Assembly (NCBI GenBank): GCA_017461505.1
Contig: JAFTXV010000007.1
Location: forward strand, 186,001-250,000
Direction of reading: 5' to 3'
DNA: 64,000 nt
Source: Paludibacteraceae bacterium
GTDB lineage: Bacteria; Bacteroidota; Bacteroidia; Bacteroidales; Paludibacteraceae
Below the pieces are notes generated by a model, which made no database searches, was not told where the DNA came from, and saw only the letters and a program-made list of their open reading frames with translations. Below, one piece after another: positions 8,530 through 26,658 of this stretch; position 1 is the first letter of the stretch; each line of letters opens with the position of its first letter. Both the position numbers and the translations under genes were made by a program.

Positions 8530-8554
8530 ACGAATTTAGGTTAGAGGTTAGAGT

Positions 8555-8989: not shown

Positions 8990-9044
8990 ATTTTTCGTTT
9001 CTATCTTTATTCCAGACTCATTGTTCTAGCTCCTATTACGCCTG

Positions 9045-9076
9045 CAAAGTTACAATTTTTTCTTCACATGGGCAAA
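9045..9076 (-). promoter_or_regulatory. -33/-7 promoter for the deaminase-ctpA-yihY operon
   Basis: On the minus strand: TTTG (9073-9076), 20 bases, TAACTTTG (9045-9052). Transcription would start a few bases on, about 45 bases before the deaminase ATG. Confidence 0.7.
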
Positions 9077-9218
9077 TGTATGCCCGAAAAAGTGTGATTT
9101 TTCGAATATCGCCTGCTGTTTTAGCATATACTTCGACGGTAACGATACAAATTCTATACCAACGCGAATCTTATCTAAGGGCAAGAGGTGTAAGGTAAAA
9201 ATATAGGATATGGAGAGG

Positions 9219-10094
9219 CTACAAATAGCGCTTAATCTGCACCAGATAGTGTGACAGTTCGCCGTTGGCGAGGCGGATACCCGTTTCGTCGATCTTATCC
9301 ACATGCACGCAGCCCGAGCAATGGATGACCTCCGTCGGACTAATCAACATACCCACATGCGTTATCCTCGTAGCCTCTGGAGCACGATCTAAATGGTCGA
9401 AGAACACTAAGTCACCTGGTTGCGCTTCTGCCAGTGAGCCCACCACTTGACCCTGAGTGACCTGTTCGCGGGCATTGCGTAAGAGGTTAATGCCAAACAC
9501 GCTATACACCGTTTGTGTGAAGCCCGAGCAGTCGTAGCCCATTATGTTCTTTCCGCCCCATAGATATGACACATTCAGCAGCGATTGTGCCACGCGCACG
9601 ATATCCTTACCTTTAACCTCTTCTAACCTCTCACCTTTAACCTCATACACACAACGAGGATTAATCTTATATTTCTTTCCCAGCACTTCGAAGGTGCCTT
9701 TTTTATAGTACGGCAATCGTGTACCGATAGTAAGTATCAGTTGCTCGCCGGTCTTTGTGTCGGTTGCCACCGCCATAGGTGTAGCCACTACGCCTTCACC
9801 ATTCGCCTCACGCCTTTCGCCCAATAACCTAATCGCCTCCTCGCTCACAGGTGTCAGCATCTTAGATACGACCCAGCCTACTTGTCCATCCATAGTAGAG
9901 CGGATCTTGGTCCAACTGGAGTGACGGTCCACCACTTCACATACTTCGCCAAAGAGCAGTTGGGTAGCTTGTTCGGCTGCATGGGCTGGTTCCTCGCGCA
10001 CAGGGGTGACGGGGCAATGGTTAATGACATATTCGGTGCTATGGGCAAGGCTAGTAGTTGCTATCAGGGTGAAGAGAAGGATGAGTTTCTTCAT
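9219..10094 (-). CDS. NlpC/P60 gamma-D-glutamyl peptidase with SH3 domains
   Basis: A 291-residue secreted cysteine peptidase: signal peptide (about residues 1-20), SH3b-like region around residues 25-90 (VREEP, WTKIRS, GWVVSKML), then a C-terminal NlpC/P60 domain. Catalytic residues are visible: Cys in YDCSGFTQ, His in THVGMLI, and the third polar residue in VIHCSG. Such enzymes cut the L-Ala-gamma-D-Glu to diaminopimelate bond of muropeptides. It follows the hydrolase-epimerase fusion gene by 37 bases, so it would release the very dipeptide that enzyme acts on. Residues around 150-165 (EVKGERLEEVKG) are an internal repeat coded by GAGGTTAAAGGT units. Confidence 0.92.
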   Translation of the reverse strand: MKKLILLFTLIATTSLAHSTEYVINHCPVTPVREEPAHAAEQATQLLFGEVCEVVDRHSSWTKIRSTMDGQVGWVVSKMLTPVSEEAIRLLGERREANGEGVVATPMAVATDTKTGEQLILTIGTRLPYYKKGTFEVLGKKYKINPRCVYEVKGERLEEVKGKDIVRVAQSLLNVSYLWGGKNIMGYDCSGFTQTVYSVFGINLLRNAREQVTQGQVVGSLAEAQPGDLVFFDHLDRAPEATRITHVGMLISPTEVIHCSGCVHVDKIDETGIRLANGELSHYLVQIKRYL

Positions 10095-10131
10095 ATGCGG
10101 ATGGTTGTTTGAGAGAAAATATTTTTAAGTA

Positions 10132-12348: not shown

Positions 12349-12388
12349 AATCAATATATAATTTTAAGATTAATTCGTTTTCGTTATC

Positions 12389-12505
12389 TTACCTCACTAC
12401 GACAAGTATCACTCTTTCTTCATAGCGTGCAAAGTCTGCATAATGGGCCTCAATTTGCGTTCCAAAGTCGCGTCTAAGTATCTGCCGTATCTCGCTGCAC
12501 ATCAT
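12389..12505 (-). CDS. Possible 38-residue leader ORF upstream of the fusion gene
   Basis: ATG-initiated frame of 38 codons reading MMCSEIRQILRRDFGTQIEA and on to ARYEERVILVVVR. The composition looks protein-like, but nothing is recognised. It overlaps the end of the 30-codon frame at 12474-12566 in another frame, so the two may be pieces of one broken gene or separate leader peptides. It ends 40 bases before the fusion gene and lies downstream of the 12611 promoter. Confidence 0.3.
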   Translation of the reverse strand: MMCSEIRQILRRDFGTQIEAHYADFARYEERVILVVVR

Positions 12506-12566
12506 ACTGCACAATAGTACCTCCGCCCACCGCATCCAAAAATCGTATTTTATCACCCTTATGCAT
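12474..12566 (-). pseudogene. Possible DUF2027-like N-terminal remnant
   Basis: A 30-codon frame reading MHKGDKIRFLDAVGGGTIVQ then ten more residues and a stop. The segment GDKIRFLDAVGGG resembles the opening of Bacteroidetes DUF2027/Smr proteins (GDKVRFLNEVGGG-like), recalled from the family and not searched. The frame is cut by a TAG after QRDTADT, so it is either a remnant or a true micropeptide. It begins about 40 bases inside the transcript from the promoter at 12611-12642. Confidence 0.35.
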
Positions 12567-12610
12567 TAAATATGTGTTATCCCCTTGGAATAGAAAACCT
12601 TTATCCGCTG

Positions 12611-12642
12611 CAAAGGTAGTATATTTTTCTGACATTTGCAAG
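12611..12642 (-). promoter_or_regulatory. -33/-7 promoter upstream of the fusion-NlpC operon
   Basis: Minus strand: CTTG (12639-12642), 20 bases, TACCTTTG (12611-12618). It implies a leader of about 255 bases before the fusion gene, containing the two small frames. The gene-free gap 12349-12747 otherwise holds only the hairpin at 12690. Confidence 0.68.
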
Positions 12643-12689
12643 ACTTTAGGATATAAAAGAGAAGTTATTCGCAGGCTAAACGACCTAAG

Positions 12690-12711
12690 GGAGTGCGATT
12701 CATCGCACTCC
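12690..12711 (-). terminator. Hairpin after mpl
   Basis: GGAGTGCGAT (12690-12699) and ATCGCACTCC (12702-12711) form a 10-bp inverted repeat about 35 bases past the mpl stop; the innermost pairs must open to make a loop. It lies between mpl and the next minus-strand promoter, where a terminator is expected. Confidence 0.55.
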
Positions 12712-12747
12712 TTTAGTTTACGTAACTCATAAAAGATTGGTTAACTA

Positions 12748-14067
12748 TTATTGGATTAGTTCCCTTGCAAATTCGGGGATGTTGATGCCATCGAAAGTGC
12801 CCGAAGTCATCATCAAAAGTGCACTGTTTTCGTACGTAATGGAACGAAGACGATGTTGCAGCATTTGACTATCTGTATACACCTCCACATTTTTCGTGCC
12901 AAACGCATCACGGACAGCTTCGGCGGTGATAGGTGTGAGTTTCTTGTGCTCAATCACTTTCGGATTGAAATACACCAATGCCACATCCGCATTCTCCATA
13001 CAGCCCTCGTACTGAGGCAAGAAGTCTGCCATCAAACTGGAGAAAGTGTGCAACTCCATGGCTGCCACCAGTTGCTTTTCGGGGTAACGTTCACGTACTG
13101 CATTAACCGTGGCACGGAGTTTACTTGGAGAGTGAGCGAAGTCCTTGTACGCTACGTTTTCGCCGATTTCATCGATAAGTTCGAGGCGGTTGCTCGCTCC
13201 CGTAAAGGTGGCTATCTCGCGGTAGAAGTCATCCAACGACACGCCAATCTGCTGGCAAGCCAATGCGGCCGCTTGTAGGTTCTCCATATTGTGCTTACCA
13301 AAGATTTTCATATCCACATCACCCTGATATGCCTCATATGGAAGTTGCAGTATATCGGCTCGTGCGTGAGAGGCGATCTCGCACAAGTTGGTGTCGTGTT
13401 TATAGTAGATAAATGTACCGTTTTCTTCGATTCCATCAACAAATTTGCGGAATGTATCCACGTATTCGGGGAAAGTAGGGAATACGTTGATATGGTCCCA
13501 CGCAATGCCTGTGAGTATCGCCACATGGGGATGATACCATAGGAATTTAGAGCGCAGGTCAAGGGGCGAAGTTAGGTATTCGTCGCCCTCAAAGACTGCG
13601 TACTTAGCGGTGTCTGATAGGCGTACCATACGCTCGAAGCCCTCAATCTGTGCGCCCACCATATAGTCGGCTTCAATACCGAGGTGCTGAAGCACATAGA
13701 GAATCATAGAGGTGGTAGAGGTCTTACCGTGGCTACCGCCTACTACGATACGAATCTTGTCTTTCGTTTGTTCGTATAGGTACTCGGGGAAAGAATATAT
13801 CTTAATCCCCAACTCGCGTGCGCGCACCAATTCGGGGTTGTCCTCGCGCGCGTGCATACCTAAAATAATAGCATCAATATCAGAGGTGATATTCTCGGGA
13901 TGCCATCCCATCTCTTTGGGCAGCAGACCTGCCTCAAGAAGGTGAGTACATGCAGGATCGAAGATTTCGTCATCCGACCCTGTCACGATATATCCTGCTT
14001 TGGTAGCCACCGCCATAGCCAAGTTGTGCATGGCTGCGCCGCCGATTGCGATAAAGTGTATACGCAT
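12748..14067 (-). CDS. mpl: UDP-MurNAc:L-Ala-gamma-D-Glu-mDAP ligase (Mpl-type Mur ligase)
   Basis: A 439-residue Mur ligase family protein. The N-terminal Rossmann part starts IHFIAIGGAAMHNLA and has the GSD motif (VTGSDDEIFD); the ATP loop is GGSHGKTSTT near residue 110; further Mur signatures are EGDEYLTSPLD, AWDHINVFPT and the C-terminal KDFAHSPSKL. Mpl reattaches recovered tripeptide to UDP-MurNAc in wall recycling; MurC is the main alternative, but the IGG-AAMHNLA start and the DFAHSP motif favour Mpl. It stands just upstream of the recycling genes at 9.2-12.3 kb, with its own promoter. Confidence 0.9.
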   Translation of the reverse strand: MRIHFIAIGGAAMHNLAMAVATKAGYIVTGSDDEIFDPACTHLLEAGLLPKEMGWHPENITSDIDAIILGMHAREDNPELVRARELGIKIYSFPEYLYEQTKDKIRIVVGGSHGKTSTTSMILYVLQHLGIEADYMVGAQIEGFERMVRLSDTAKYAVFEGDEYLTSPLDLRSKFLWYHPHVAILTGIAWDHINVFPTFPEYVDTFRKFVDGIEENGTFIYYKHDTNLCEIASHARADILQLPYEAYQGDVDMKIFGKHNMENLQAAALACQQIGVSLDDFYREIATFTGASNRLELIDEIGENVAYKDFAHSPSKLRATVNAVRERYPEKQLVAAMELHTFSSLMADFLPQYEGCMENADVALVYFNPKVIEHKKLTPITAEAVRDAFGTKNVEVYTDSQMLQHRLRSITYENSALLMMTSGTFDGINIPEFARELIQ

Positions 14068-14094
14068 AGTTCTTTATTGCTGTTAATTAGACTG

Positions 14095-14126
14095 CAAAGG
14101 TAGTGAAAAGTTTTGAGTTGTGCAAG
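14095..14126 (-). promoter_or_regulatory. -33/-7 promoter for mpl
   Basis: Minus strand: CTTG (14123-14126), 20 bases, TACCTTTG (14095-14102), about 28 bases before the mpl ATG. Confidence 0.7.
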
Positions 14127-14159
14127 ATTTTGGAAATTTTTCCGTTATGTAATGAAGTG

Positions 14160-14996
14160 TCACTCCTCTTTAGACTCTATTGGGAGAATATAATCGCTAG
14201 CTTTTTCGCTTGATATGATTGTTCTTCCTAATTGTCGTTCCAATTGTTTACGAGCAGCTTTGGCTACACTACCACCATCTTTTGCGACATGCGTTTGTTG
14301 TCTAAATCCCTTTGGATTGCGTTGTTTAGACAGTTCTGTTGCCGAAGCTTCTGCCAAAGTATTCAACGCTATCTCAAGGTTAGTCATGTTATCTCGTAGG
14401 TTTTCTTTCTTTAGTCCTTTTAGATGTTTGTACTGTTTGGTGGTCATTCCGCTCCATTCTTTGGTGATAATGTCAGTCAAAGAAGCGTATTCCATACCCA
14501 CATTTACTCCTGTTCTTTGCCACTCATCTGTTAATTCCTTTCGCACTTCAATAGACTTGATACGTTGGTTGATCCAAGCATCAGAATACCCCAGACGCTT
14601 ATAGTCTAATATAGCTTGCTCTATAGAAAGTTCTGGGTCTTGCATTTGATCCAACCGTTGCGCAGCCACCATCGCCATCCATTGTTTGAAAGGTTCTGCT
14701 TTGGACGAAGGGATGGATTGGATGATACGGAAAATAGTTTGAGCGTCGCCAACTAAAGTTTTACGTCTTTTTCCCGAATCGCCACTCATTAGTACCTGGG
14801 GACAATTTGTCCCCACGAAGGATGCGAGTTGTTCATCCCTTTTGCGCATCTTCTTGAAATAGTCAGTAGGATTTACACTATCAGCAAGAACTTGAATAAC
14901 ATCTAATACCGAGAAATACCATTTCTCTTGCACATCATCCCAGATAGTTCTAACCTTTTTCTCCTCAAAATGTTTTATTGCTTCGCTTTGTCCCAT
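14160..14996 (-). CDS. BRO-N / phage antirepressor-like protein
   Basis: A 278-residue protein. Residues about 10-110 form a BRO-N type domain (KKVRTIWDDVQEKWYFSVLD, then VLADSVNPTDYFKKMRKRD), found in phage antirepressors and DinD-like proteins. The middle is helical with GYSDAWINQRIKSIEVRKEL; the C-terminal part is Lys/Arg-rich (KAARKQLERQLG). Versions of this protein occur singly in Bacteroidales chromosomes, usually as phage or island cargo. DNA binding is inferred from the domain; the regulatory target is unknown. It stands alone with its own promoter and marks the left edge of the AT-rich region. Confidence 0.75.
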   Translation of the reverse strand: MGQSEAIKHFEEKKVRTIWDDVQEKWYFSVLDVIQVLADSVNPTDYFKKMRKRDEQLASFVGTNCPQVLMSGDSGKRRKTLVGDAQTIFRIIQSIPSSKAEPFKQWMAMVAAQRLDQMQDPELSIEQAILDYKRLGYSDAWINQRIKSIEVRKELTDEWQRTGVNVGMEYASLTDIITKEWSGMTTKQYKHLKGLKKENLRDNMTNLEIALNTLAEASATELSKQRNPKGFRQQTHVAKDGGSVAKAARKQLERQLGRTIISSEKASDYILPIESKEE

Positions 14997-15018
14997 AACA
15001 TTAACTGAATTTACCCTG

Positions 15019-15050
15019 CAAAGGTACGGAAAAATTTGCAGATATGCAAG
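15019..15050 (-). promoter_or_regulatory. -33/-7 promoter for the BRO-N gene
   Basis: Minus strand: CTTG (15047-15050), 20 bases, TACCTTTG (15019-15026), 23 bases before the ATG. The rest of the gap 14997-15411 holds a hairpin at 15215 and AT-rich sequence with no convincing gene. Confidence 0.7.
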
Positions 15051-15214
15051 TTATGGTTGGCGAAATGATGATTTATTGGTGAGATTTGTATAAAAAGTCT
15101 GGGAATAAATATGCTACTAGTTAGGCGACCACTATAGGAGATCTGTGGGACTTCTGTGGGCTTTCTGTGGCTTTTGTGTTTCAAGTATTTGTGTCTCTAT
15201 AATAATGATGCAAA

Positions 15215-15250
15215 AATCTTCGGCACGGAAGGGATTTTGTGCCGAAGATT
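15215..15250 (-). terminator. Hairpin after the lipoprotein pair
   Basis: A perfect 12-bp stem, AATCTTCGGCAC (15215-15226) with GTGCCGAAGATT (15239-15250) and a 12-base loop, followed by TTTTGC on the minus strand. It fits a terminator for the genes at 15412-16804, though 160 bases past the stop. Confidence 0.55.
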
Positions 15251-15411
15251 TGTAAATTTGTAGGGTAAAGTGGTATATATAACATGCGGGAAGTGTAGTA
15301 TTTACAGGGCTTCCAGCGTGAGTGTATTTTTTTTGCAAAAAGTTTCTTCGCGCGAAGATTGTGCCGAAAATATTATTTTGTGCATGTATTTATGACATTA
15401 CGCAAACTATA

Positions 15412-15900
15412 TCAGTTAATATAGTATTCATATTTTGTTTGTTGTTCAGCAAAATCGTAACTAAGCCATAAAGATGTTTTTCCTATCATCCAAGAACAAT
15501 AGTTACCATATTCAGTAATATCATGGTATCTTACACGCCCATATATGCGTTCGGATGCGTGCTGGATGGCTTTAAAATCGGTTTCTGACATATCAAGGGT
15601 ATAAGAAAATTGTTTAATTTTCTCTTTTTCTAATTCAATAGTGATATAGATAGAATCGACTTTTACACTATCTTCATTTAGATCAATTACCTCTGTAGAA
15701 TAGGCTTTTATTGAAATTTCACTTTCAGAAAGATGCTGAATAGTGTCAATGTTTATTGGACATTTCCATGGCTCTTTATCCAAATCTTTTAAGAACTGTT
15801 CAAAAGTACCATCAATATAAACGCCAAATACTTGTGGGCGTTGCTGGCATGAAGTAAAAAGTGCAAATACTGATACAGCAAGAATGATTAGTTTTTTCAT
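15412..15900 (-). CDS. Hypothetical lipoprotein
   Basis: A 162-residue protein with a signal peptide and lipobox (FALFTSCQQ, Cys 18), so probably lipid-anchored in the envelope. The mature part is acidic and predicted beta-rich (VKVDSIYITIELEKEKIKQF) with no motif I recognise. It follows the 291-residue lipoprotein at 15929 by 28 bases on the same strand; both are AT-rich and lie at the edge of the accessory island. Confidence 0.65.
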   Translation of the reverse strand: MKKLIILAVSVFALFTSCQQRPQVFGVYIDGTFEQFLKDLDKEPWKCPINIDTIQHLSESEISIKAYSTEVIDLNEDSVKVDSIYITIELEKEKIKQFSYTLDMSETDFKAIQHASERIYGRVRYHDITEYGNYCSWMIGKTSLWLSYDFAEQQTKYEYYIN

Positions 15901-15928
15901 TGTTTTGAGAGAGAATTAGAGGGTTGGC

Positions 15929-16804
15929 TTACCACCATTTTACGACTTCATGCAAGTATGCAGGCATTAGGTGGATGTTGCAACGATGGTTTGTGTTGTA
16001 CTGATGGTAGATAGAATCCACAAATTGATTGGTGCTTCTGCTTCTATTTCTCGTTTTGGACAAGGATAACATATAGCTTGATTCGGAGATATGTCGTCCA
16101 CAACAATCGGCATCAGATAATACTAATATAAAATTGTCTATAAGTGCAGTATAATAAGTATTTAAACACTGATTATCATCTTCTATCTCCGAAATTTTGG
16201 CACTGACTTGAGGAATAAAAGCTGTTTTACGATTATAGATGTTTATATATGCATTTTTATCAGCAGGATTGGTTCCTATTAGACATATTAGCAGAGTAGA
16301 ATCTATGGATAGATAGCATGCTTGCGGTGCATTAATATCATTCTTATCAAGACCTATTATTTTTCGCTCAATTTTTCGCAAACTATCTAATGCTGCATCT
16401 CGCAGAGGATTTGGACAATTGATTGCGTACAACTTATAACCTTCAGAACTATCTGTGGTGTCTTCCTCCATTAGACTTTTGTCACGAATCCAAATCTTTC
16501 CATTTTTGAAATATACACCTCGCCATGACTTTTGATGCCAGTCTTCCGCTGTGGAATTTTGTAATTCTTTGCACAAGTCAGGACTAATAATTCGGTCGTA
16601 GTACTGAATAAACTCCTGCTCGTTTAGAATAGGCTTGAGGGGATAAGGTTGTGGGAATGGGTATTCTACAAGTTTGGCAACGGAAGCTTTGTCGTTATGG
16701 AAGATTGCATTTGTTATTCTGTCTTGTGTGGTTAAATTTTTACTTGTGACACAAGAGATTATAATTAAAAGAATACTAATAGTGTAAAACATGAAATGTT
16801 TCAT
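15929..16804 (-). CDS. Hypothetical lipoprotein
   Basis: A 291-residue protein with a hydrophobic N-terminus and lipobox (LLIIISCVTS, Cys about 18). The first 100 residues (NAIFHNDKASVAKLVEYPFP, then ILNEQEFIQYYDRIISPDL, WRGVYFKNGKIWI) resemble SnoaL/NTF2-like periplasmic domains, recognised only by pattern. The C-terminal half has LLICLIGTNP and FILVLSDADCCGRH. No known function. It pairs with the downstream lipoprotein gene and is AT-rich like the island. Confidence 0.65.
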   Translation of the reverse strand: MKHFMFYTISILLIIISCVTSKNLTTQDRITNAIFHNDKASVAKLVEYPFPQPYPLKPILNEQEFIQYYDRIISPDLCKELQNSTAEDWHQKSWRGVYFKNGKIWIRDKSLMEEDTTDSSEGYKLYAINCPNPLRDAALDSLRKIERKIIGLDKNDINAPQACYLSIDSTLLICLIGTNPADKNAYINIYNRKTAFIPQVSAKISEIEDDNQCLNTYYTALIDNFILVLSDADCCGRHISESSYMLSLSKTRNRSRSTNQFVDSIYHQYNTNHRCNIHLMPAYLHEVVKWW

Positions 16805-16833
16805 AAATATGGTTGTTAAAAGTCATGGATAAG

Positions 16834-16904
16834 AAACAGCATTAGTTATAATACATCCAAACAAATCCGTAGTAAAAAGTATGTAGTTATAACTAATGTT
16901 GTTT
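16834..16904. repeat. 18-bp inverted repeat at the 3' side of the four-gene operon
   Basis: AAACAGCATTAGTTATAA (16834-16851) and TTATAACTAATGTTGTTT (16887-16904) pair in 17 of 18 positions around a 35-base loop. It lies between the DUF1848 stop (17009) and the lipoprotein start (16804). It could be a terminator for the operon or a scar or recognition site of a mobile element. Confidence 0.7.
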
Positions 16905-17008
16905 CGGTTTTCTCATATCAATTTCAAGTTAATAAGCAATATCTTTATACAGTATGCATAGAAACTTGTTTAATCGGAAGATTTTCTTTTGTCATAAAGA
17001 TGGAAGAT

Positions 17009-18061
17009 TTATCCAATTATGCTTTCTGAATCTATATTGAATTTTGATAGATTTTTTGCAACCACTTCTTTGCTTGTATTTGCATAGCAATAAACACAAA
17101 GATGATTACATGTATTGTACATGCCAATATCTTTGCTTACCATGCAACCACAAATTTTTCTCTGTCCCTTGTCTTTTAAGTTCTTTCGAGAAGCAGGTAT
17201 TTCTGGTATCTCTCCAAACAAATCAGGTGTAGGTAACTGCCCTGTTCTCAAATAATAGACCAATTCCTTATCCTCGCTCCAAAGTTTTTCCATTAACTCT
17301 CCATCTATACAGCGATTATGTTCTATGCCGTATTTATCATAATCAAACTCTTCTGCACATGTTGCGAATTGTAGATCCCAACCTTGATTATTCCACTCTT
17401 GGCGGATTTTACAGAGTCCATCTATGATTTCACCGCGTTGCACTTCTGTAGGTTCTGCCATTTCAATCGTTTCACGAGTAAAACAGGAGGTTTCTTTTAC
17501 TAAATTATTTTGCACTTTACGATATGATTTAACATCCACGAAACTAAATACTAGTTTATCCGTAAAGTTCTTAAGCTGATTTCCTATATTCGCAATTCGT
17601 TTAAGATGTTCTTTAGGAGTCAAAGTCTTGGTAATAATGATAGGATCATATCTCCATATGACACGCTCTTTTCCTATTAATTTAGATAATTCTTTAAAGG
17701 TTTCTATGCGTACTGAAAGTGATGGTACATTTGGCTCAAAACCTTCAGCAACATAGTCATTTAAAGTTACTTGAAAATAATAATGTATTCCTTGTTTGTC
17801 TAATTCGTAGAGATATGGTATAATGGGTTTGGGATTTTTTGTCCAAAACACAATTACTTTGCATTTTGCAAATGATATATACATTGGCTTTTGATTGAAT
17901 GGATTATACCAAACACAATAGCCTTTCTCCAATCGATTGAAGAACCATTCCGCATAGAACGCAGGAATATCCGTTGATCGGCTTGCAGATATTATGACAG
18001 GAGTAGATGCTTCTACAACTAGTCCTGCATCTATTTTTATTTTCAGGCTATCTATTGGCAT
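17009..18061 (-). CDS. DUF1848 protein with C-terminal radical-SAM-like cysteine motif
   Basis: A 350-residue protein of the DUF1848 family. The N-terminal part reads like the barrel strands of SPL-type radical SAM enzymes without their opening motif: VIISASRSTDIPAFYAEWF, then KVIVFWTKNPKPIIPYLYEL, YYFQVTLN, WRYDPIIIT and LVFSFVD. The cluster-type cysteines instead lie at the C-terminus: CNHLCVYCYAN (Cys318, 322, 325, spacing CX3CX2C), with a further CGC at 304-306. So it looks like a circularly permuted radical SAM protein; substrate unknown. Its start overlaps the end of the 699-residue orphan by 14 bases, indicating coupled translation. Base composition is AT-rich like the rest of the operon. 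Confidence 0.85.
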   Translation of the reverse strand: MPIDSLKIKIDAGLVVEASTPVIISASRSTDIPAFYAEWFFNRLEKGYCVWYNPFNQKPMYISFAKCKVIVFWTKNPKPIIPYLYELDKQGIHYYFQVTLNDYVAEGFEPNVPSLSVRIETFKELSKLIGKERVIWRYDPIIITKTLTPKEHLKRIANIGNQLKNFTDKLVFSFVDVKSYRKVQNNLVKETSCFTRETIEMAEPTEVQRGEIIDGLCKIRQEWNNQGWDLQFATCAEEFDYDKYGIEHNRCIDGELMEKLWSEDKELVYYLRTGQLPTPDLFGEIPEIPASRKNLKDKGQRKICGCMVSKDIGMYNTCNHLCVYCYANTSKEVVAKNLSKFNIDSESIIG

Positions 18062-20147
18062 ATATCCGTTGTAAATAGTCTATAATTTTTTCTATGGGAA
18101 CCTTTTCGTAAATAGGCATCAGCCAATTCATATTAACCTTTTTATCAGGATTATATCTCCTTTTTTCGCAATATTCTTTTATATGCACTATAATATCAGC
18201 ATTAGATTTACTTCGTCCAACATACTGCCCTGTTAATTGTTTTTTCTTTTTCTGATCATAGTAGTTTTCTTTGTAATTGTCAATTAGCCAATCCATATCC
18301 TCTTCGAATTGTTTTTTTGCCTTTTCGTCAATAATAAGTTTTTTGCATTCTCCAATCCACGAAGTATCATCCAAAAGATTGTTACTAAACAGGAAAAGCG
18401 ATTGAATTGGTGTTATTTGATGTTCTTGAGTTTCAGGAGTAAAAAACGATTTAATGTATTGATATGCTTTGCTCGTTTCCTTTTTGAATCCTTGTTCCTT
18501 TTTCAATCCTTTCAAAAACTGTTGCTCATTTACATTGCCACAACTATTAAGATATGCATTAAAAATAGCATCATCTTTTTTACTTGATTTATATCCTTTC
18601 CAATATTGAAGAATATCATCATAAAAATGAGGTTTTAAAGATAATGGCGAATCTGTTTCTTCGAGTTTAATATTAATATCTATCTTTGATTTTAAAGATG
18701 TGTCTAATTTTTTATTGAATAATTGCCCATAAAATTCAGAATAAACCTCCGTTACATACTTACTATCTTGTTCCAACAGTATATCTGTAAAATCTCTTGT
18801 TAAGTTGGCGAATCCGTTTAGTACACCATATAATGCAAAGGCTAAACGATAATCGTTCATTTCTTTATATCGCATAAATCGTAGTAGTTGCTCCCAGTCG
18901 TCACCTTTTGCTAATACTGCGGCTAAAGAAGACAATAATCCATTCGAGTATTGATAGTCAAATTTATCTCCATTTAAATGACGCCTTAGTGCGTTTAAAA
19001 ACAATTTTTCTTGCGAAGTTTCCCATTCTTCTTTGAAATATTCATTGCGAGAGAGTAGGGTCAATTCATTCGCAATTTCCATTTTTATGGGACTTATTTT
19101 TCCATTGTATTTAGAGGTTCTCAATACCTTATTTACCCAAAGGATAAATAATTCTTTATCTACTTCGTTATCACACTTTATATAGTGCAGATTTAAGTCT
19201 GTTGAAACTACTTCACTAGCATCTGTTGATAATGCATTATTTTGTATATGCGTCAATAAAGTCAACTGAGATAGAAATCTTTTTATGGTTAAACTATTAT
19301 CTAACGACTCAAAACTCAAAGTTGTCAAAATAGAGTTGCAAGTATCAAAGGGTAATATTATGTTGTACTGATTCAATATTCTTAATAATCTCTCTACTTT
19401 TGTACTATCATTATCTTCCTGTTGTAATAAAGCGCGATATAGGGGATGAGTATTATTTACGACAGATAAATATTCTGTCAAGTTTTCTGCTTGGAAATCA
19501 GTAGCTGTTTTTTCAGGATTAGATAAGATTGCGGAAACAATATCATTAATTTCTAACAAAGCATGAATATGTCTTACATTATCAACAGATGTAGATAATG
19601 AAGCCCCTATGTAATACCCATATAACAATCCTTTAATTTTATTCACAAAAATATCCTTTTCTACTTCTGCACGAGAAATAGGTATATTATCATGATGTGT
19701 AACTACAGAATATTTTTCACGCGGCGTGTTTTCTGCTACAAACATTTTCTTTTTGTATAGGCGTAGCATTTTTGTTTCAAGACTATGTTCAGACAAGGAT
19801 AATACTACAGACTTATCTTGCTCAGTGAAAAAGTACACTTTTGTATGCCAAGGGTCTAAATATATCGTATGGGTTGAGTAAAATACCCCTTCTTGCAGTG
19901 CAGGAAAATCCTCATCAGTCTGAATTTCGATCACCATAGGATGATCTTCAACATTGGAAATAGGTCGCACAAAAGATTTGAGAGTATCATATAGTAATAT
20001 CACTCCTTCTAAAGCGTTCTCTGGGATGTTTACCCAATTTGAATAACCAAACTTTCTCTCAGGGTAAAATCCGAGAGGAGATATTGACTCAGAAGAAAAT
20101 ATATTATTAAAATTGAGCGAACTTGTAGGTATATAAAATGTTTTCAT
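18048..20147 (-). CDS. 699-residue orphan protein of the helicase/methyltransferase operon
   Basis: A large soluble protein I do not recognise. No signal peptide or membrane helix is visible. The first 150 residues are beta-rich (FYIPTSSLNFNNIFSSESIS, GFYPERKFGY, YLDPWHTKVYFF); the rest, to about 600, is mostly helical. The C-terminus is basic (QKKKKQLTGQYVGRSKSNAD, CEKRRYNPDKK), which would suit nucleic-acid contact. No Walker, HNH, PD-DExK or other catalytic motif could be picked out. It starts one base after the helicase stop and overlaps the DUF1848 gene. Its size and place suggest it is the specificity or effector part of the system; that is inference. Confidence 0.8.
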   Translation of the reverse strand: MKTFYIPTSSLNFNNIFSSESISPLGFYPERKFGYSNWVNIPENALEGVILLYDTLKSFVRPISNVEDHPMVIEIQTDEDFPALQEGVFYSTHTIYLDPWHTKVYFFTEQDKSVVLSLSEHSLETKMLRLYKKKMFVAENTPREKYSVVTHHDNIPISRAEVEKDIFVNKIKGLLYGYYIGASLSTSVDNVRHIHALLEINDIVSAILSNPEKTATDFQAENLTEYLSVVNNTHPLYRALLQQEDNDSTKVERLLRILNQYNIILPFDTCNSILTTLSFESLDNSLTIKRFLSQLTLLTHIQNNALSTDASEVVSTDLNLHYIKCDNEVDKELFILWVNKVLRTSKYNGKISPIKMEIANELTLLSRNEYFKEEWETSQEKLFLNALRRHLNGDKFDYQYSNGLLSSLAAVLAKGDDWEQLLRFMRYKEMNDYRLAFALYGVLNGFANLTRDFTDILLEQDSKYVTEVYSEFYGQLFNKKLDTSLKSKIDINIKLEETDSPLSLKPHFYDDILQYWKGYKSSKKDDAIFNAYLNSCGNVNEQQFLKGLKKEQGFKKETSKAYQYIKSFFTPETQEHQITPIQSLFLFSNNLLDDTSWIGECKKLIIDEKAKKQFEEDMDWLIDNYKENYYDQKKKKQLTGQYVGRSKSNADIIVHIKEYCEKRRYNPDKKVNMNWLMPIYEKVPIEKIIDYLQRIYANR

Positions 20148-20148
20148 A

Positions 20149-21276
20149 TTAGAAATCGTCTATCGTGGTTATTTCTTCTGTTTCGTATAATTCTTTGGGA
20201 ATATTTGATAAAAAATCAGGTTCGTAGTCAGACCACATCATATAAAGATACTTATAAGTTCTTGTTGCTGCAACATAGAGAGATTTTTGTTGAGAGTCAT
20301 CGAAATCTTCTAACTTAGGCATGAATATTGCTTCAAACTGCAATCCTTTCGCACTATGATAAGTCATAATTTTGGGATTAGAACTGTTGAAATTCAAGGT
20401 GTCTTTGCTATTGTGCCAATCTTCCTTGTCAGTATATCTTACTTCATAATTTCCTCCTAATTGATTTAACTTATTGTACACATAACGCACATCATTACTG
20501 TGAGGCAGTAAGATTGCGACATCTGTTAAGTTCTTAGTTTCTATAACTCTGTGAATCGCCTTAATTTGCTCATCAAAAGATTCGTACTCTATAATTCGTG
20601 GCGCCTCAATTTCGGTACTTTTATATATAGAAGGTATAAATGGGGGCAAACCAACGCCTATTCGATGAGTTAACTTTGCGACAGGTAATGGCAATCGATA
20701 ATTATTGTATAAATCAAAACGTTTTGCGGTTCTTGCTTCTTCGATGTTAAATTGAATATCTTCAACGCTAATAGTATCTTTCAAATTCTCGAATATTGAT
20801 TGTGCCGTATCGCCAAAGAAGTAAAAGTTTTTACGGGCTGCTTGTATAAATTCTCTTATTTCTTGTTCTGTAAAATCTTGAATTTCATCAACTATAATAT
20901 AGTCAGATTTTGGCATATTGGGCACTTTATTACCCTCTTCATCCCTTTTATATACCATATATGAAACTCCATTTGCATATGTCTTCATCTCCTTCTTCCA
21001 ACGCCATTCTTCATGGTAATAAAAATCTTTTCTCAATCCAAGAGATTCCCGACCCGATTTCATGTAATTGCATAGTGCTTTGGTGAAGACAATGATTTGA
21101 TAATCATCTCCTTTTTCTCTTTGGATACGTTGCGCCTTTACTAAAGCAAGAATCGATTTACCACTACCTGCACACCCAGATACTATGCATGATTTATCAA
21201 GAGTTGCCATCAAAACGGCTATTTGACCACCATCTTTCTCTAACTCTGATTCTTTAATCATCCAATCTTTTTTCAT
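20149..21276 (-). CDS. Compact superfamily 1A (UvrD/Rep-like) helicase
   Basis: A 375-residue ATPase with the SF1A motif set in order: Walker A GCAGSGKS near residue 36, Ia (IIVFTKALCNYM), Walker B/DExQ as DEIQDF near 132, III (FFGDTAQSIF), IV (NNYRLP), V (TYHSAKGLQFEAIF) and VI (LYVAATRTYKYLYM). It is about half the size of UvrD (700+ residues) because the 1B and 2B insertions are small. There is no nuclease domain. The ATG overlaps the methyltransferase stop (ATGA), and the orphan gene begins one base after its stop. DNA or RNA translocation is well supported; the biological job is not. Confidence 0.9.
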   Translation of the reverse strand: MKKDWMIKESELEKDGGQIAVLMATLDKSCIVSGCAGSGKSILALVKAQRIQREKGDDYQIIVFTKALCNYMKSGRESLGLRKDFYYHEEWRWKKEMKTYANGVSYMVYKRDEEGNKVPNMPKSDYIIVDEIQDFTEQEIREFIQAARKNFYFFGDTAQSIFENLKDTISVEDIQFNIEEARTAKRFDLYNNYRLPLPVAKLTHRIGVGLPPFIPSIYKSTEIEAPRIIEYESFDEQIKAIHRVIETKNLTDVAILLPHSNDVRYVYNKLNQLGGNYEVRYTDKEDWHNSKDTLNFNSSNPKIMTYHSAKGLQFEAIFMPKLEDFDDSQQKSLYVAATRTYKYLYMMWSDYEPDFLSNIPKELYETEEITTIDDF

Positions 21277-22094
21277 GATCTCTTAGTTTTCAAGATTCTC
21301 CAAGCAATTTTACTGATATCATTTTGCTTGTGAGAATGAGTTATGTAAAATGTTTCGTTGTAATTTTCGTTTTTACAAATAACATCCATAGGAGTAGAAT
21401 TGATACCATTGTCTATAATGCTTGGTAACCAATTATGCGCCACATCGCTATATGAAGTAACATCTGCAAGGCATATAATACCATTGTCGGAGAGATGTGG
21501 TAATAGCGTGTTTATTAAGTATGCATAAGGATTTTTTTCTTCTAGCTCTTGTTTTGTTACAAATTCACAGATTGCTTTAAACGATATGGCGATGTCGTAT
21601 GTTCTAAGTTTAAGGCACTCATTTTCAACTAGAGATAAATCATAGAAATCTTCAATTACAACAGGGATAACTTGGTGAAGAATATCAAAATGAAGATATT
21701 TTTTAGACTCAGATAATATCAACTCTAAGTAACGTAACGAATGATTGTTTCCATCTAAAGCATAAATTTTCACTTCTTGTAGATTTTCCAAATTTTCATT
21801 GAGAGCAGCGATTAATCCTATTAACTCACCACCAGTTCCACATCCAAAATCAAAGATGGTTAGTTCTGTTTGAGAATCATAATCATTTCTATTTTTTTGA
21901 AAATATTGACTAAAAATGCCATAGGATTCAGCGAATGAGCGAGGGAAATATGTACCAAGGTAACATTGTATATCTGTTGCCTCCCAATTTAGGACAACAA
22001 GATCCTTACATTTTTTTTCGAAAGTAGCGGATAATGTATTGAAAATGTAATCATCTAGCCACTTGGGTAATATTATATGATTTTTTGTAGGCAT
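21273..22094 (-). CDS. Class I SAM-dependent methyltransferase
   Basis: A 273-residue protein with a SAM-binding motif I, FDFGCGTGGELIG, near residue 82, an acidic end of strand 2 (IYALDGNNHSLRYL) and a motif IV-like region (YDIAISFKAICEF). The upstream segment YFPRSFAESYGIF is reminiscent of the Rsm22 family of rRNA methyltransferases. There is no DPPY/NPPF motif, so it does not look like a DNA adenine or N4-cytosine methylase, nor PC motif of a C5 methylase. It is first in the operon, about 100 bases after the promoter at 22202-22233. Substrate unknown: RNA or a small molecule are both possible. Confidence 0.85.
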   Translation of the reverse strand: MPTKNHIILPKWLDDYIFNTLSATFEKKCKDLVVLNWEATDIQCYLGTYFPRSFAESYGIFSQYFQKNRNDYDSQTELTIFDFGCGTGGELIGLIAALNENLENLQEVKIYALDGNNHSLRYLELILSESKKYLHFDILHQVIPVVIEDFYDLSLVENECLKLRTYDIAISFKAICEFVTKQELEEKNPYAYLINTLLPHLSDNGIICLADVTSYSDVAHNWLPSIIDNGINSTPMDVICKNENYNETFYITHSHKQNDISKIAWRILKTKRS

Positions 22095-22201
22095 CTTTGT
22101 TTTTCTTTGGTATATATATTAATGGTTATTTTCTATACAAAAATACAATTTTATAATTGGTTATTCATCTATAAGCATATACGAAATGTCAAATTTCGTT
22201 G

Positions 22202-22233
22202 CAAAGATACAAAATTGTTTTGAGTTATGCAAA
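22202..22233 (-). promoter_or_regulatory. -33/-7 promoter of the four-gene operon
   Basis: Minus strand: TTTG (22230-22233), 20 bases, TATCTTTG (22202-22209). It leaves a leader of about 100 bases before the methyltransferase ATG and is the only recognisable promoter for the four genes down to 17009. Confidence 0.72.
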
Positions 22234-22278
22234 TAAATGTGACTTTTTGTTGGATAAATGGGTACTTAATGTAAAATA

Positions 22279-22309
22279 GAGGCAATGCTTCTGATTTTAG
22301 CATTGCCTC
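22279..22309 (-). terminator. Terminator of the small minus-strand transcript
   Basis: A perfect 10-bp stem, GAGGCAATGC (22279-22288) with GCATTGCCTC (22300-22309), loop 11 bases, followed on the minus strand by TATTTTACATT. It separates the transcript starting near 22898 from the operon promoter at 22202-22233. Confidence 0.65.
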
Positions 22310-22508
22310 TAGTAACCAAGCCTTATCACTCTTAATACTTAGCATAAATATATTGTTGTTAGTGATGATGGAGTCTTGGGGTATTAATATTACCTTTTGC
22401 ATTTTCTCTAATATTTGAAATGCTACATAATATCGCATTTCTTATCATTTATTTCAGCATGATAAGCAGTATCTGCTTTTACTGAAATAGCGTAGTAGGG
22501 TTAAATCC

Positions 22509-22601
22509 TTAATGTTTCAGCAAATTCACTCCAATGGATAAAATCACAAAAAGTGACTCTGCTATTCCCACATACCAATAAATTTCTTCAATTGTTAGCA
22601 T
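22509..22601 (-). CDS. 30-residue single-pass membrane micropeptide
   Basis: ATG-started frame of 30 codons: an acidic, aromatic N-terminus (MLTIEEIYWYVGIAES) followed by a hydrophobic run LFVILSIGVNLL and a basic end KH. That layout is a single transmembrane helix with charged ends, as in type I toxins and other membrane micropeptides. It lies inside a transcript bounded by a promoter (22905-22936) and a terminator (22279-22309). No family is recognised and a chance frame in AT-rich DNA cannot be excluded. Confidence 0.4.
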   Translation of the reverse strand: MLTIEEIYWYVGIAESLFVILSIGVNLLKH

Positions 22602-22623
22602 GAGAGTTGTATTTAATTGTTTT

Positions 22624-22671
22624 TACCGCTACAATGTTGTTTACTTTGAGTAAATGTTAAGTGTAGCGGTA
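22624..22671. other. Nested hairpin in the gene-poor segment
   Basis: TACCGCTACA (22624-22633) pairs perfectly with TGTAGCGGTA (22662-22671); inside is a second stem TTTACT/AGTAAA. A further compound hairpin with arms TTTCAG/CTGAAA and AAGCAG/CTGCTT lies near 22452-22488. The whole gap 22095-23468 has no large gene: it holds these structures, the micropeptide, two promoters and two terminators, and a purine-rich patch at 23230-23285. Confidence 0.6.
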
Positions 22672-22904
22672 TAGCAGAAACATCTACTCGCATTATAGAA
22701 GCAACTAACATTTGTTGCTGCAATCAATATTACCAATAAAAGAATCAACGCTACTCGTTTGTTTATTGGCAAAATCAGTATAATTAGTAGCAAATTAATA
22801 TAAACTAACTCTCAAAATAGATCCTCGTAATAGAATAAGAGTTCGTCAATAAGGTTTAGCATCACTATCTTTAATAAGTACTATCTTAATCTTCGAAGAC
22901 GCCG

Positions 22905-22936
22905 CAAAGGTATTGTTATTTTTTGATATGTGCAAA
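22905..22936 (-). promoter_or_regulatory. -33/-7 promoter of a small structured transcript
   Basis: Minus strand: TTTG (22933-22936), 20 bases, TACCTTTG (22905-22912). No gene of ordinary length follows before the terminator at 22279-22309, so it drives a transcript of about 620 bases. Confidence 0.7.
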
Positions 22937-23359
22937 TATTTTGCGGAATATTTTTATTCTTTTTGATAGCAAAGCTAATAACAGCTTCGGTAGAAGAATG
23001 CTCTTGGTGAGAAGGATAATATTCTGTATTTTTTAAACGGGAATTTGATTTTCAACGGATTTTTGAATTGAGCAAGAGAAATCGCTTTTGAGGTGATTTT
23101 TTCTTTAAATAGATAAGTCAACCTTTTCAGGAACATAGGAAACCTTTTTAGGGAGCCAATCTTAACAAAAAGCACTTTTTGGTTGCGGGGAGTTGATGCG
23201 GAGTTCTCTCGGTCTTCTCCCGCTCGTCGGTCGGTAAAATGAGGGAAGGTATAAGAGAGGTAAAAGAGAGGTAAAAGAGAAGGCAATCTTAATATTTGTA
23301 CTGTTTAGAGGACGGTGCAGAGCACCTACAGTTTAGAGATTAGAGGCGAGGAATATACA

Positions 23360-23393
23360 AAAGACATCGATAGGATTTCCTACCGATGTCTTT
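23360..23393 (-). terminator. Terminator of typA-tig
   Basis: AAAGACATCG (23360-23369) and CGATGTCTTT (23384-23393) plus an inner TAGG/CCTA stem, followed on the minus strand by TTGTATATT. It lies 76 bases past the tig stop. Confidence 0.72.
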
Positions 23394-23468
23394 GTGTTTT
23401 GTATTGTCGGCTACTGCCGAGGTTGTGTGCCCATTGGGCAGGTTGTGTCGCTTCGCGAGGTTTGGCTA

Positions 23469-24803
23469 TTATGCGAAGAGTTTGCCGAAGTCAGCGTGGC
23501 TGATCTCTTTCTCCTCGATCTTAGCTACGCCCTTGAGTGCAGCGTAGATCTTGTTCTCAGCTACGCGCTCAACGATACCACGCAATTGCTTCTCGTCCTT
23601 GAGCATTTGCTCTGCGTAGTTAGCCAAGTAGCTATCCTCTACGTGCATCAAACCGTATTGCATGAACTGCATGCGAGCTACCTCTTTAGCGTATGCCTCT
23701 ACGTCCTCTTTCTCTACTTGAACGTTGAAGTGCTTAGCCAATTGGTCTTTCGCCAAGTGCCAACGGAGCTCGTCCACCATAGCAGGGAAGTCTTTCTCCA
23801 ACTCTTCGTCGGTCATCTTCTCGTTGGTAGCTTTCACCCAGCGTTTGAGGAATGCCTCTGGGAATTCAACTTTAGCCATTTTCTTCATCACAGCCTCTTT
23901 AGCGTCCAAACCGAACTTGTACTTGGCGTCCTCAGCCATGTTTTGCTCAATCTCAGCCTTGATACGTGCGCGGAAGTCAGCCTCGTCAGCGATATTGTTC
24001 TCGCCGTAAACCTTAGCAAAGAGCTCGCCATCGATAGCCGCAGCTTGGTGACGGGTAATGCCTTGGAGCTCGAAAGTGAAGTCGCTGGTCAATGCCTCAG
24101 CCTCCTCTTTGCTGATGCCGAGCATTGAGCTAACCTCTACAGAGTTGCCGTATGCTTTGGTTGGGTTGAAAGTGATTACATCACCCACCTTTGCGCCAGC
24201 GAACAACTTAGCTTGCTTTTTGTCTGACATATAAGCAGGAGTCAACATGCCGTTCTCCTTCACGATACCGTTCTCCTTTTGCTCGGTGAGAAGACCCTTT
24301 ACTACATCGCCTTCCTCTACAACCTCAGCTTGTACATAGTCGCCAAAGCGTTGAGCGTAGCTCTTCACTTGGTTGTCAACCATCTCGTCGGTAACGGTGA
24401 TGGTGTATTGGGTGAGTTTGTTCTTGCCGTTGAGCATAGCGTCGAACTCTGGAGCCACAGCAATGTCAAATGCAAAAGAGAAAGTGTCTTGTGTGTCGAA
24501 GTTTACCTCTGGAGTGAGTTCCTCATTTGGCAATGGATCGCCAAGGAGGTTGAGGTTGTGCTCCTCAATGTACTTGTTGAGACCTTCGCCGATAACCTTG
24601 TTGATTACCTCAGCGAGGATGCTCTTGCCGTACATCTTTTGCAACATACCCTTAGGTGCCATACCTGGACGGAAACCTGGGATGTTAGCTTTCTTACGAA
24701 TTTGGATAAGTTCTTTTTGAACTGCCTCTTGATAGTCTGCTGGCTCCACAGTGAGAGTGATAACCGCTGTGAGGTCTTTGATTTCTGATTGTTCAATTTT
24801 CAT
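23469..24803 (-). CDS. tig: Trigger factor
   Basis: A 444-residue ribosome-associated chaperone. The N-terminal ribosome-binding domain is clear, with the signature GFRPGMAPKG near residue 43. A PPIase-like middle domain (about 150-245, VEEGDVVKGLL onwards) has diverged from FKBP consensus, and a long helical C-terminal arm domain follows (from about 260). Length and order match the family. It is 55 bases downstream of typA, presumably in one operon, with the terminator at 23360. ATG 24803 directly precedes the conserved start MKIEQSEI. Confidence 0.93.
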   Translation of the reverse strand: MKIEQSEIKDLTAVITLTVEPADYQEAVQKELIQIRKKANIPGFRPGMAPKGMLQKMYGKSILAEVINKVIGEGLNKYIEEHNLNLLGDPLPNEELTPEVNFDTQDTFSFAFDIAVAPEFDAMLNGKNKLTQYTITVTDEMVDNQVKSYAQRFGDYVQAEVVEEGDVVKGLLTEQKENGIVKENGMLTPAYMSDKKQAKLFAGAKVGDVITFNPTKAYGNSVEVSSMLGISKEEAEALTSDFTFELQGITRHQAAAIDGELFAKVYGENNIADEADFRARIKAEIEQNMAEDAKYKFGLDAKEAVMKKMAKVEFPEAFLKRWVKATNEKMTDEELEKDFPAMVDELRWHLAKDQLAKHFNVQVEKEDVEAYAKEVARMQFMQYGLMHVEDSYLANYAEQMLKDEKQLRGIVERVAENKIYAALKGVAKIEEKEISHADFGKLFA

Positions 24804-24858
24804 ATAACTAAATTTTTAATTTGATTTCTTTTTTGAGTCAGGATTCGGGAATTGAGAG

Positions 24859-26658
24859 TTAAGATTTATTCGCGCGTTTGCGTTCGAGTTCGTCAAGGAT
24901 GATTTTGCGGATACGCATGTAGTTTGGTGTTACCTCCACGTATTCATCTTCCTTGATATACTCCAATGCCTCCTCCAGCGAGAAGATCACAGGTGGTGGC
25001 AATACCGCCTTGTCATCTGCCGATTTCGAGCGCATATTGGTCAGTTTCTTCGACTTGGTTACATTGATAACAATGTCGCCCTCTTTCGAGCTCTCGCCTA
25101 CTACTTGACCCGCATACACCTCGTCTTGTGGTGAAATGAAGAATCGTCCGCGGTCTTGCAGTTTATCCAAGGCATATGCGTAGGCAGTTCCACTCTCCAT
25201 GGCGATGAGCGAACCATTGTTGCGCTTCACGATCTCGCCTTTGTATGGTTGGAACTCCAAGAAACGGTGTGCCATGATCGCCTCTCCTGCTGACACATTC
25301 AACACATAGGTACGCATACCGATGATACCACGGCTTGGAATCTCGAACTCGAGTTGTACGCGGTCGTTGATCATCTCCATACGAGTCATCTCGCCCTTGT
25401 GGGTGGATACATACTCGATAATCTTGCCTGAGCACTCCTCTGGGGTGTTCACCGTCAGTTGCTCCACAGGCTCGCACTTCACGCCATCAATCTCCTTGAT
25501 GATGACTTGTGGCTGACCCACTTGCAACTCATATCCCTCACGGCGCATGGTCTCTACGAGTACGCTAAGGTGCAACACACCACGGCCAAACACATTCCAC
25601 GATGTCTCGTCTATACCACGCTCCACACGGAGGGCAAGGTTCTTCTCAAGCTCTTTGTTCAAGCGGTCTTGGATATGGCGTGAAGTCACAAACTTACCGT
25701 CCTTGCCAAAGAATGGCGAGTCGTTGATGGTAAATACCATCGACATCGTTGGTTCGTCGATTGCAATTGGATCAAGTGCCTCTGGATTTTCGTAATCGCA
25801 GATAGTATCGCCAATCTCAAAGCCCTCAATACCGATGAGTGCGCAGATATCGCCTGATTTCACTTCTTCCACTTTCATGCGACCCATGCCCGAGAAGGTG
25901 TGCAGCTCTTTGATCTTGCAGCGGACTTTGCTGCCGTCTTTCTTTGCGAGGGTCACATTCTGACCGTTCTTCAAGGCACCACGGTGTACGCGTCCCACGG
26001 CGATACGACCCAAGTATGGGCTATAATCCAAGCTGGTAATCAACATCTGTGGTGTACCGTCCAACATCTCTGGGGCAGGCACATGCTCAATGATAGTGTC
26101 CATCAATGCGGTGAGGTCGGTCGTTGGCTTGTGCCAATCGGTGGACATCCAGCCGTTCTTAGCCGAACCGTAGATGGTTTGGAAGTCCAATTGCTCCTCG
26201 GTCGCATCAAGGTTGAGCATCAGGTCAAACACTTCCTCTTGTACCTCGTCTGGACGGCAGTTGAGTTTATCTACTTTGTTGATGACTACGATTGGTTTGA
26301 GATTGAGCTCCAAGGCTTTTTGTAGCACAAAGCGAGTCTGTGGCATAGGGCCTTCGAAGGCATCCACCAACAGCAGCACACCGTCTGCCATGTTGAGTAC
26401 GCGCTCCACCTCGCCACCGAAGTCGGCGTGGCCCGGAGTGTCAATCACATTAATCTTGCAGCCCTTGTATTCAATGGCTACGTTCTTCGCCAAGATGGTG
26501 ATACCGCGCTCGCGCTCGAGTTCGTTGTTGTCGAGGATAAGCTCGCCTTTCTGCTCGTTCTCACGGAAGAGGTTGGCGGTGTACAACATCTTGTCAACCA
26601 GGGTGGTTTTACCGTGGTCAACGTGTGCGATGATAGCTATATTTCTGATGTTTTGCAT
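24859..26658 (-). CDS. typA: Translational GTPase TypA/BipA
   Basis: A 599-residue translation-factor GTPase. G1 is AHVDHGKTTL (residues 10-19), G2 lies around GITILAKN, G3 is DTPGHADFGGEVER, and G4 is NKVD near residue 128. Domain II, the EF-G-like domains III and V and the BipA-specific C-terminus (GTAYAYALDKLQDRG, QDEVYAGQVVGE) are all present. BipA assists late 50S assembly and stress adaptation. It heads the typA-tig operon from the promoter at 26715-26746. Confidence 0.95.
   Translation of the reverse strand: MQNIRNIAIIAHVDHGKTTLVDKMLYTANLFRENEQKGELILDNNELERERGITILAKNVAIEYKGCKINVIDTPGHADFGGEVERVLNMADGVLLLVDAFEGPMPQTRFVLQKALELNLKPIVVINKVDKLNCRPDEVQEEVFDLMLNLDATEEQLDFQTIYGSAKNGWMSTDWHKPTTDLTALMDTIIEHVPAPEMLDGTPQMLITSLDYSPYLGRIAVGRVHRGALKNGQNVTLAKKDGSKVRCKIKELHTFSGMGRMKVEEVKSGDICALIGIEGFEIGDTICDYENPEALDPIAIDEPTMSMVFTINDSPFFGKDGKFVTSRHIQDRLNKELEKNLALRVERGIDETSWNVFGRGVLHLSVLVETMRREGYELQVGQPQVIIKEIDGVKCEPVEQLTVNTPEECSGKIIEYVSTHKGEMTRMEMINDRVQLEFEIPSRGIIGMRTYVLNVSAGEAIMAHRFLEFQPYKGEIVKRNNGSLIAMESGTAYAYALDKLQDRGRFFISPQDEVYAGQVVGESSKEGDIVINVTKSKKLTNMRSKSADDKAVLPPPVIFSLEEALEYIKEDEYVEVTPNYMRIRKIILDELERKRANKS

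Follow-up and report, generated by a model that had tools for sequence, protein, structure and literature searches.

A helicase-ORP gene pair with an optional methyltransferase and DUF1848 part, a candidate mobile defence cassette in a Paludibacteraceae bacterium

The minus strand of the stretch analysed here (the window, 64,000 nucleotides of contig JAFTXV010000007.1 from a Paludibacteraceae bacterium) carries, on reading its open reading frames (ORFs), four coupled ORFs at 17009-22094 that encode in order a methyltransferase-like protein (MT), a compact superfamily 1 (SF1) helicase (HEL), a 699-amino-acid (aa) partner protein (ORP) and a DUF1848 protein. The cassette consists of a HEL-ORP core and an optional MT/DUF1848 part, since the core genes are adjacent at all 15 ORP loci found and MT and DUF1848 accompany them at 8. 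That the cassette is real and conserved is nearly certain, and we give a probability of roughly 60% to its being a horizontally moving cassette of the defence type. The best reading, made from sequence comparison, is an anti-phage system that would combine a helicase and an ADP-ribosyltransferase (ART)-like protein with an S-adenosylmethionine (SAM)-dependent module.

Results

The 15 ORP loci, the window included, come from genome samples that overlap. ORP relatives were present in 2 of 101 close genomes, in 8 of 393 genomes of the order Bacteroidales, with one weak match among them later dropped, and in 4 of 395 genomes across the phylum, with further loci in one genome contig (L003), one phage-labelled record (L004) and three IMG/VR contigs (L016, L029 and L030). 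Searching plasmids with ORP gave no match, and searching phages gave one phage-labelled record. A weak ORP match in genome G340 (E of 9e-4), in an 18.4-kb stretch (L023) with neither HEL nor ORP by profile, was rejected. HEL lies directly upstream of ORP at every locus, with a gap of -20 to +15 nucleotides (nt), and the pairwise identities of the two proteins correlate (Mantel r of 0.855, p of 0.0001, 9999 permutations), a correlation that shared descent alone could yield.

MT and DUF1848 accompany the pair intact in the window, L003, L004, L017, L018, L020 and L029 and in broken form at L021, where MT is a fragment and DUF1848 is split over two ORFs. The L021 copy (8114-12760) is the second one in the genome of L018 (G326), and its HEL and ORP are open. 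The order MT-HEL-ORP-DUF1848 is kept at all but L020, where it is MT-DUF1848-HEL-ORP; one additional gene lies between ORP and DUF1848 at L017, and MT is part of a 703-aa protein at L029. At the other 7 of the 15 loci (L005, L016, L019, L022, L030, L031 and L032), HEL-ORP stands with neither gene alongside. An MT-like gene and DUF1848 are in turn found without the core in five IMG/VR stretches (L047, L051, L053, L055 and L059; methyltransferase judged by eye) and in L202 and L226 (MT profile E of 1.9e-46 and 9e-4). The first-pass annotation of this DNA had proposed a fixed complex or pathway. With MT and DUF1848 at about half of the ORP loci, DUF1848 often apart from the core and its silent divergence much lower than that of the other three genes, a fixed four-gene complex is not supported, and it is the HEL-ORP core that survived the search for the proteins together elsewhere.

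The coding status of the four genes is supported by a comparison with L003, the closest relative found, in which the proportion of nonsynonymous differences (pN, 0.06-0.22) is far under that of synonymous ones (pS, 0.27-0.81). All lie on the minus strand: MT (273 aa) at 21273..22094, HEL (375 aa) at 20149..21276, ORP at 18048..20147 and DUF1848 (350 aa) at 17009..18061. MT and HEL overlap in ATGA, one base separates HEL from ORP, and ORP and DUF1848 overlap by 14 bases, so that the layout proposed earlier agrees with our re-reading of the junctions. A promoter-like site at 22202..22233 (minus strand), also proposed earlier, fits what we take to be the Bacteroidetes promoter consensus (TTTG-N19..21-TAnnTTTG). 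The window matches this consensus exactly at 11 sites, where shuffles predict 0.90.

The cassette is carried by a 9.4-kb island (14068..23467) with a G+C content of 33.9% against 48-51% in five flanking stretches, which bears out the AT-rich segment of the first-pass annotation. Four sister genomes were read at this site. The two genes that flank the island, presumably an Mpl-like ligase gene and a trigger-factor-like gene, abut in the same-genus genomes G014 and G005, leaving an empty site; they are about 10 bases apart in G009 and lie apart in G017. In L003, the cassette sits between different genes. A second stretch (8990-12742), beside the island, is missing in G014 (L132), with its flanks abutting there. 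The window and L003 share 44-84% DNA identity in MT, HEL and ORP and 86-95% in DUF1848, the change coming as a sharp step near 18,000. The pS of DUF1848 is 0.27, and that of the other three genes is 0.67-0.81. The lower pS and the step suggest that DUF1848 was probably exchanged on its own.

Several relatives of the cassette lie inside or beside known anti-phage systems. In L031, the HEL-ORP pair is found inside a bacteriophage exclusion (BREX) operon, in the order BrxC, PglX, HEL-ORP, PglZ and BrxL. The neighbours at L020 are the type I restriction-modification (R-M) genes HsdM/S/R and a GajB-like helicase; those at L032 are a HamB-like (Hachiman-like) helicase, a capP-like protein and a GajB-like helicase; those at L005 are a retron-type reverse transcriptase and a WYL regulator; and those at L004 are a PDC-M01A/B pair (PtuA-like; Septu-like). 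On the island of the window, a BRO-N gene (14160..14996, minus strand) matches the PADLOC candidate single-gene system PDC-S13 (1.1e-120), Bro-N (1.3e-7) and PHROG 15286. With the neighbours scanned in part, PADLOC matches at an E of ≤1e-20 were found near 6 of the 15 loci. At this threshold, 76 neighbours (ORFs of at least 150 aa) from seven loci matched 108 PADLOC models, while 95 control proteins (from seven other stretches of the same seven genomes; L196 was short and G149 was left out) matched 2. The single neighbours scanned at L016 (2), L019 (4), L021 (1), L029 (2) and L030 (1) gave no match reaching 1e-20. PADLOC detected no PglZ, PglX, DrmB or reverse transcriptase among the four cassette genes, which thereby lack the hallmarks of BREX, DISARM and DRT systems, and BREX genes surround HEL-ORP in L031 only.

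HEL matches the Pfam families Viral_helicase1 (2.3e-12) and UvrD_C_2 (1.1e-7) as well as AAA_19 and UvrD_C, and its relatives with solved structures include, by profile, HelD, UvrD, PcrA, Rep and GajB. The helicase motif residues do not vary across 11 aligned sequences, and the earlier description of a small UvrD-like helicase with all motifs was thus confirmed. In PADLOC and the PDB, the best matches of HEL include UvrD helicases of the GajB type (GajB models, 1.4e-12 with partial coverage), with comparable values for NERD+UvrD (1.8e-13) and HelD (4.8e-12). The cassette nevertheless differs from Gabija (GajAB) in that HEL is shorter, and a GajA-type partner (OLD ATPase/TOPRIM nuclease) gave no match among the four genes in Pfam or PADLOC.

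The 15 aligned ORP sequences range from 575 to 807 aa and have a variable C terminus. The ORP of the window gave nothing above any cutoff in Pfam, PADLOC, NCBIfam or PHROGs, in line with the first-pass view of a protein with no known domain, a view that is now qualified by a weak link between the N-terminal domain and PF22546 (2CompART, the "2-Component system ADP-ribosyltransferase domain"; the name 2CompART is absent from the open-access papers listed by a search). The best of eight ORP homologues scanned, that of L022, grazes this family at an E of 0.044 and 14.4 bits against a cutoff of 27, and the N termini of ORP and 2CompART align with an hhalign E of 0.001-0.004, where five of six controls gave 0.32-0.73. 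Among 198 Bacteroidales genomes, four proteins pass the PF22546 cutoff. In all four cases (L190-L193) a HEL homologue lies directly upstream, and in L191, L192 and L193 the helicase is itself preceded by DUF1848, seen in L193 (G077) as a C-terminal end that the contig start truncates; on the fourth contig the upstream sequence is 137 bases long. These systems therefore resemble the cassette in gene arrangement, in protein size and in the weak N-terminal similarity. They differ in that a further gene of 483-517 aa follows, in that the stretches read gave no match to MT and in that the ORP of the window is under the Pfam threshold. L191 (G125) and L192 (G216) are sister operons with the order DUF1848, SF1 helicase, 2CompART and a gene of 514-517 aa. 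We know of no functional test of the PF22546 helicase systems. As the family cutoff is not reached, we consider ORP to be probably a distant relative of the PF22546 family and not a member. In the L020 ORP, a topoisomerase-type zinc ribbon was matched at an E of 3.1e-6, under its cutoff, and the single match of ORP to PDB sequences (E of 3.3) is not credible.

DUF1848 matches PF08902 over the full length of the profile (1.3e-94, positions 1-262 of 262) and the PADLOC model RTasDUF1848 (3.8e-40), although the cassette has no reverse transcriptase and the context here is a helicase and ORP. Its C terminus carries a CxxxCxxC motif (C318, C322 and C325) that is invariant in 21 aligned sequences. 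The family was compared, at the sequence level and with E-values and scores that are those of single comparisons, with nine radical-SAM proteins that a search with NF033668 (PA0069 family) had brought up, each scoring under the curated cutoff of that family. The unrotated profile aligned over 27 columns with a score of 59, and rotation at residue 60 left this unchanged (58), while rotation at 120, 180, 230 and 270 gave 69, 82, 84 and 87. Rotated at 285-303, which places the motif first, the profile aligned over 222-224 colinear columns with a score of 87, or 90 once the tail was removed. Taken by itself, the portion ahead of the motif scored 42 against the radical-SAM body, and five unrelated profiles scored 13-21. 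The cluster motif and a related barrel are thus both found at the sequence level, and the body becomes colinear only when circularly rotated. In line with the first-pass annotation, DUF1848 appears to be a radical-SAM protein with a circular permutation. Nothing convincing was found for DUF1848 among PDB sequences, and the term "DUF1848" was not found in the open-access literature searched.

MT gave weak CheR and Methyltransf_31 matches in Pfam (E of 0.0012-0.0016, under cutoff) and keeps a glycine-rich SAM-site motif and a GTYFPRS block in six aligned sequences, which points to a class I SAM-methyltransferase-like protein. Its earlier label as Rsm22-like is not specifically supported, as PF09243 gave no match at an E of ≤1. 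With six proteins drawn with PF09243 the hhalign E was 4e-6, and most of these six are weak matches resembling generic methyltransferases. Nothing convincing was found for MT among PDB sequences.

At 4 of the 15 loci, the operon is preceded by a structured RNA of roughly 300 nt (L003:7740-8068, plus strand; L017:13523-13847, minus strand; L019:6259-6546, plus strand; and, as an 83-nt 3' part, L030:8538-8620, plus strand), and copies from 15 further loci were aligned. The alignment holds 18 of 22 regions, L167, L171, L179 and L030 being left out as incomplete or failing anchors. Compensatory change is strong: of the 40 pairs, 15 show changes on both sides across the 18 copies. Such cells number 68, where shuffles give 20.7, and the covariation score is 0.334, where slid structures give 0.07-0.11. 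As the structure came from this very alignment, the figures are biased in its favour. The covarying RNA is absent from Rfam 15 at the gathering score: six loci, two of them with the RNA, gave tRNAs only, and six RNA loci at an E of ≤1 gave microRNA models only, under the gathering score. Window positions 8900-24900 gave two microRNA-model matches far under that score. The RNA may be included among the thousands of candidate RNAs from human microbiomes in PMC8040213. A TAnnTTTG motif is present in 16 of the 22 regions, and a same-strand ORF begins within 1500 nt after the RNA in 16 of 17 stretches read, a count made with no control. A promoter-like motif often precedes the RNA and a terminator-like hairpin ends it, and the operons downstream vary, with genes that we judged to be defence, kinase or lipoprotein like. 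L033 carries the RNA without the cassette, and blastn found one to five matching pieces in 10 of 149 Bacteroidales genomes, that of the window among them.

Within the 64-kb window, nhmmer gave no match to this RNA, and the stretch upstream of the cassette was accordingly rejected as a copy of the L003/L017 RNA. This stretch (22240-22900, minus strand) folds better than shuffles (z of -5.2, 20 shuffles) and contains a hydrophobic ORF of 30 codons which, in our judgement, looks like a type I toxin peptide. The stretch has its own promoter-like site, the second one near the cassette, at 22905-22936. A 19-nt inverted repeat with 95% complementarity lies directly downstream of the cassette (16833-16905).

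Discussion

The location of relatives inside or beside known anti-phage systems suggests that the cassette is probably an immunity system, and a defence role is likely. We call this system undescribed with respect to PADLOC 2023, Pfam, NCBIfam, PHROGs and the open-access literature searched, where no description of the cassette was found, including in the parts available of PMC10853773, PMC12839542, PMC7159879 and PMC9503650. The first-pass idea of an anti-phage or nucleic acid system has thus gained support from the co-occurrence of the core genes and from defence genes near 6 of the 15 loci, and has lost the fixed complex and Rsm22.

For the mechanism, we infer that HEL would recognize or remodel phage nucleic acid as a sensor or motor. 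ORP would be the effector, with an N-terminal domain that is perhaps ART-like, of the 2CompART kind, and a variable C terminus that may hold nucleic acid. Activation would then lead to modification of nucleic acid or of a bound target, and phage growth would come to a halt. The likeliest role of MT and the permuted radical-SAM DUF1848 is that of an optional module that would add a modification to the same substrate or take it off, either to protect self or to license the effector; a protective function is, for now, a doubtful assignment. It is similarly unlikely that the cassette represents a new class of immunity in which an SF1 helicase would deliver an ART-like effector to phage nucleic acid while MT and DUF1848 would write, or erase, the mark that tells self from non-self.

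Several results weigh against the anti-phage, ART-like interpretation. DUF1848 is frequently found without the core. The 108 PADLOC models of the neighbour comparison are redundant and stem from few proteins, at least eight of them traced to 3 of the 7 loci, so that the comparison counts models and not systems. The single neighbours scanned at L017 (4) and L018 (5) gave no PADLOC match reaching 1e-20, and those of L003 were left out of the scan. On the side of ORP, the protein of the window has no match to PF22546 at an E of ≤1, one of the eight ORPs scanned touches the family, the hhalign probability is just 9-21%, and comparing the two families directly with HMMER gave an E of 0.001 at best, in a search of four sequences. 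One of the six controls was not clean, as DarT aligned with the 2CompART family at an E of 0.012. No catalytic residues were identified in ORP. A DarT-like nature of ORP was specifically rejected (hhalign probability of 0.1%, nine comparison loci). The likeness to DarTG would be that of ADP-ribosylation defence in both, if ORP is ART-like, and none of the four genes encodes a macrodomain partner. We therefore hold the ART-like assignment of ORP as tentative.

Two alternatives are about equally improbable. The cassette could serve DNA or RNA repair or the stress response, with the helicase unwinding damage and DUF1848 repairing lesions together with MT. The resemblance of HEL to HelD and UvrD and the alignment of DUF1848 with PA0069-like radical-SAM proteins, a group that we take to be near spore photoproduct lyase, would fit such a function. 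The patchy distribution, the low-G+C island with its empty same-genus site and the BREX and R-M settings fit mobile defence better, and HEL-ORP also does without MT and DUF1848 at 7 of the 15 loci. Alternatively, HEL-ORP and MT/DUF1848 could be two unrelated accessory units that are merely co-transcribed as island cargo. Each is found alone, the identity step near 18,000 sets DUF1848 apart from the other three genes, and a clear HEL, ORP or 2CompART gene was present at just 3 of 24 DUF1848 loci (each read with no more than about 1.5 kb to either side). Against this, more than half of the ORP loci have both units, arranged in two gene orders, and three of the four sister HEL-2CompART pairs have DUF1848 ahead of the helicase.

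It is least probable that the genes are counter-defence or superinfection-exclusion cargo of prophages or conjugative elements, as suggested by the copies in IMG/VR contigs and by the phage-labelled L004, which has recombinase-like genes on both sides in our judgement, since 11 of the 15 loci are from genome assemblies (chromosomal and prophage copies not told apart) and such cargo is compatible with anti-phage action and would change the beneficiary.

In conclusion, the interpretation that we prefer is a horizontally moving, defence-type cassette, for which a two-gene core and a four-gene extended form are now defined for phage protection tests. The DUF1848 family gains a testable fold, a recurrent set of partners and a tie to the ART-named family PF22546.

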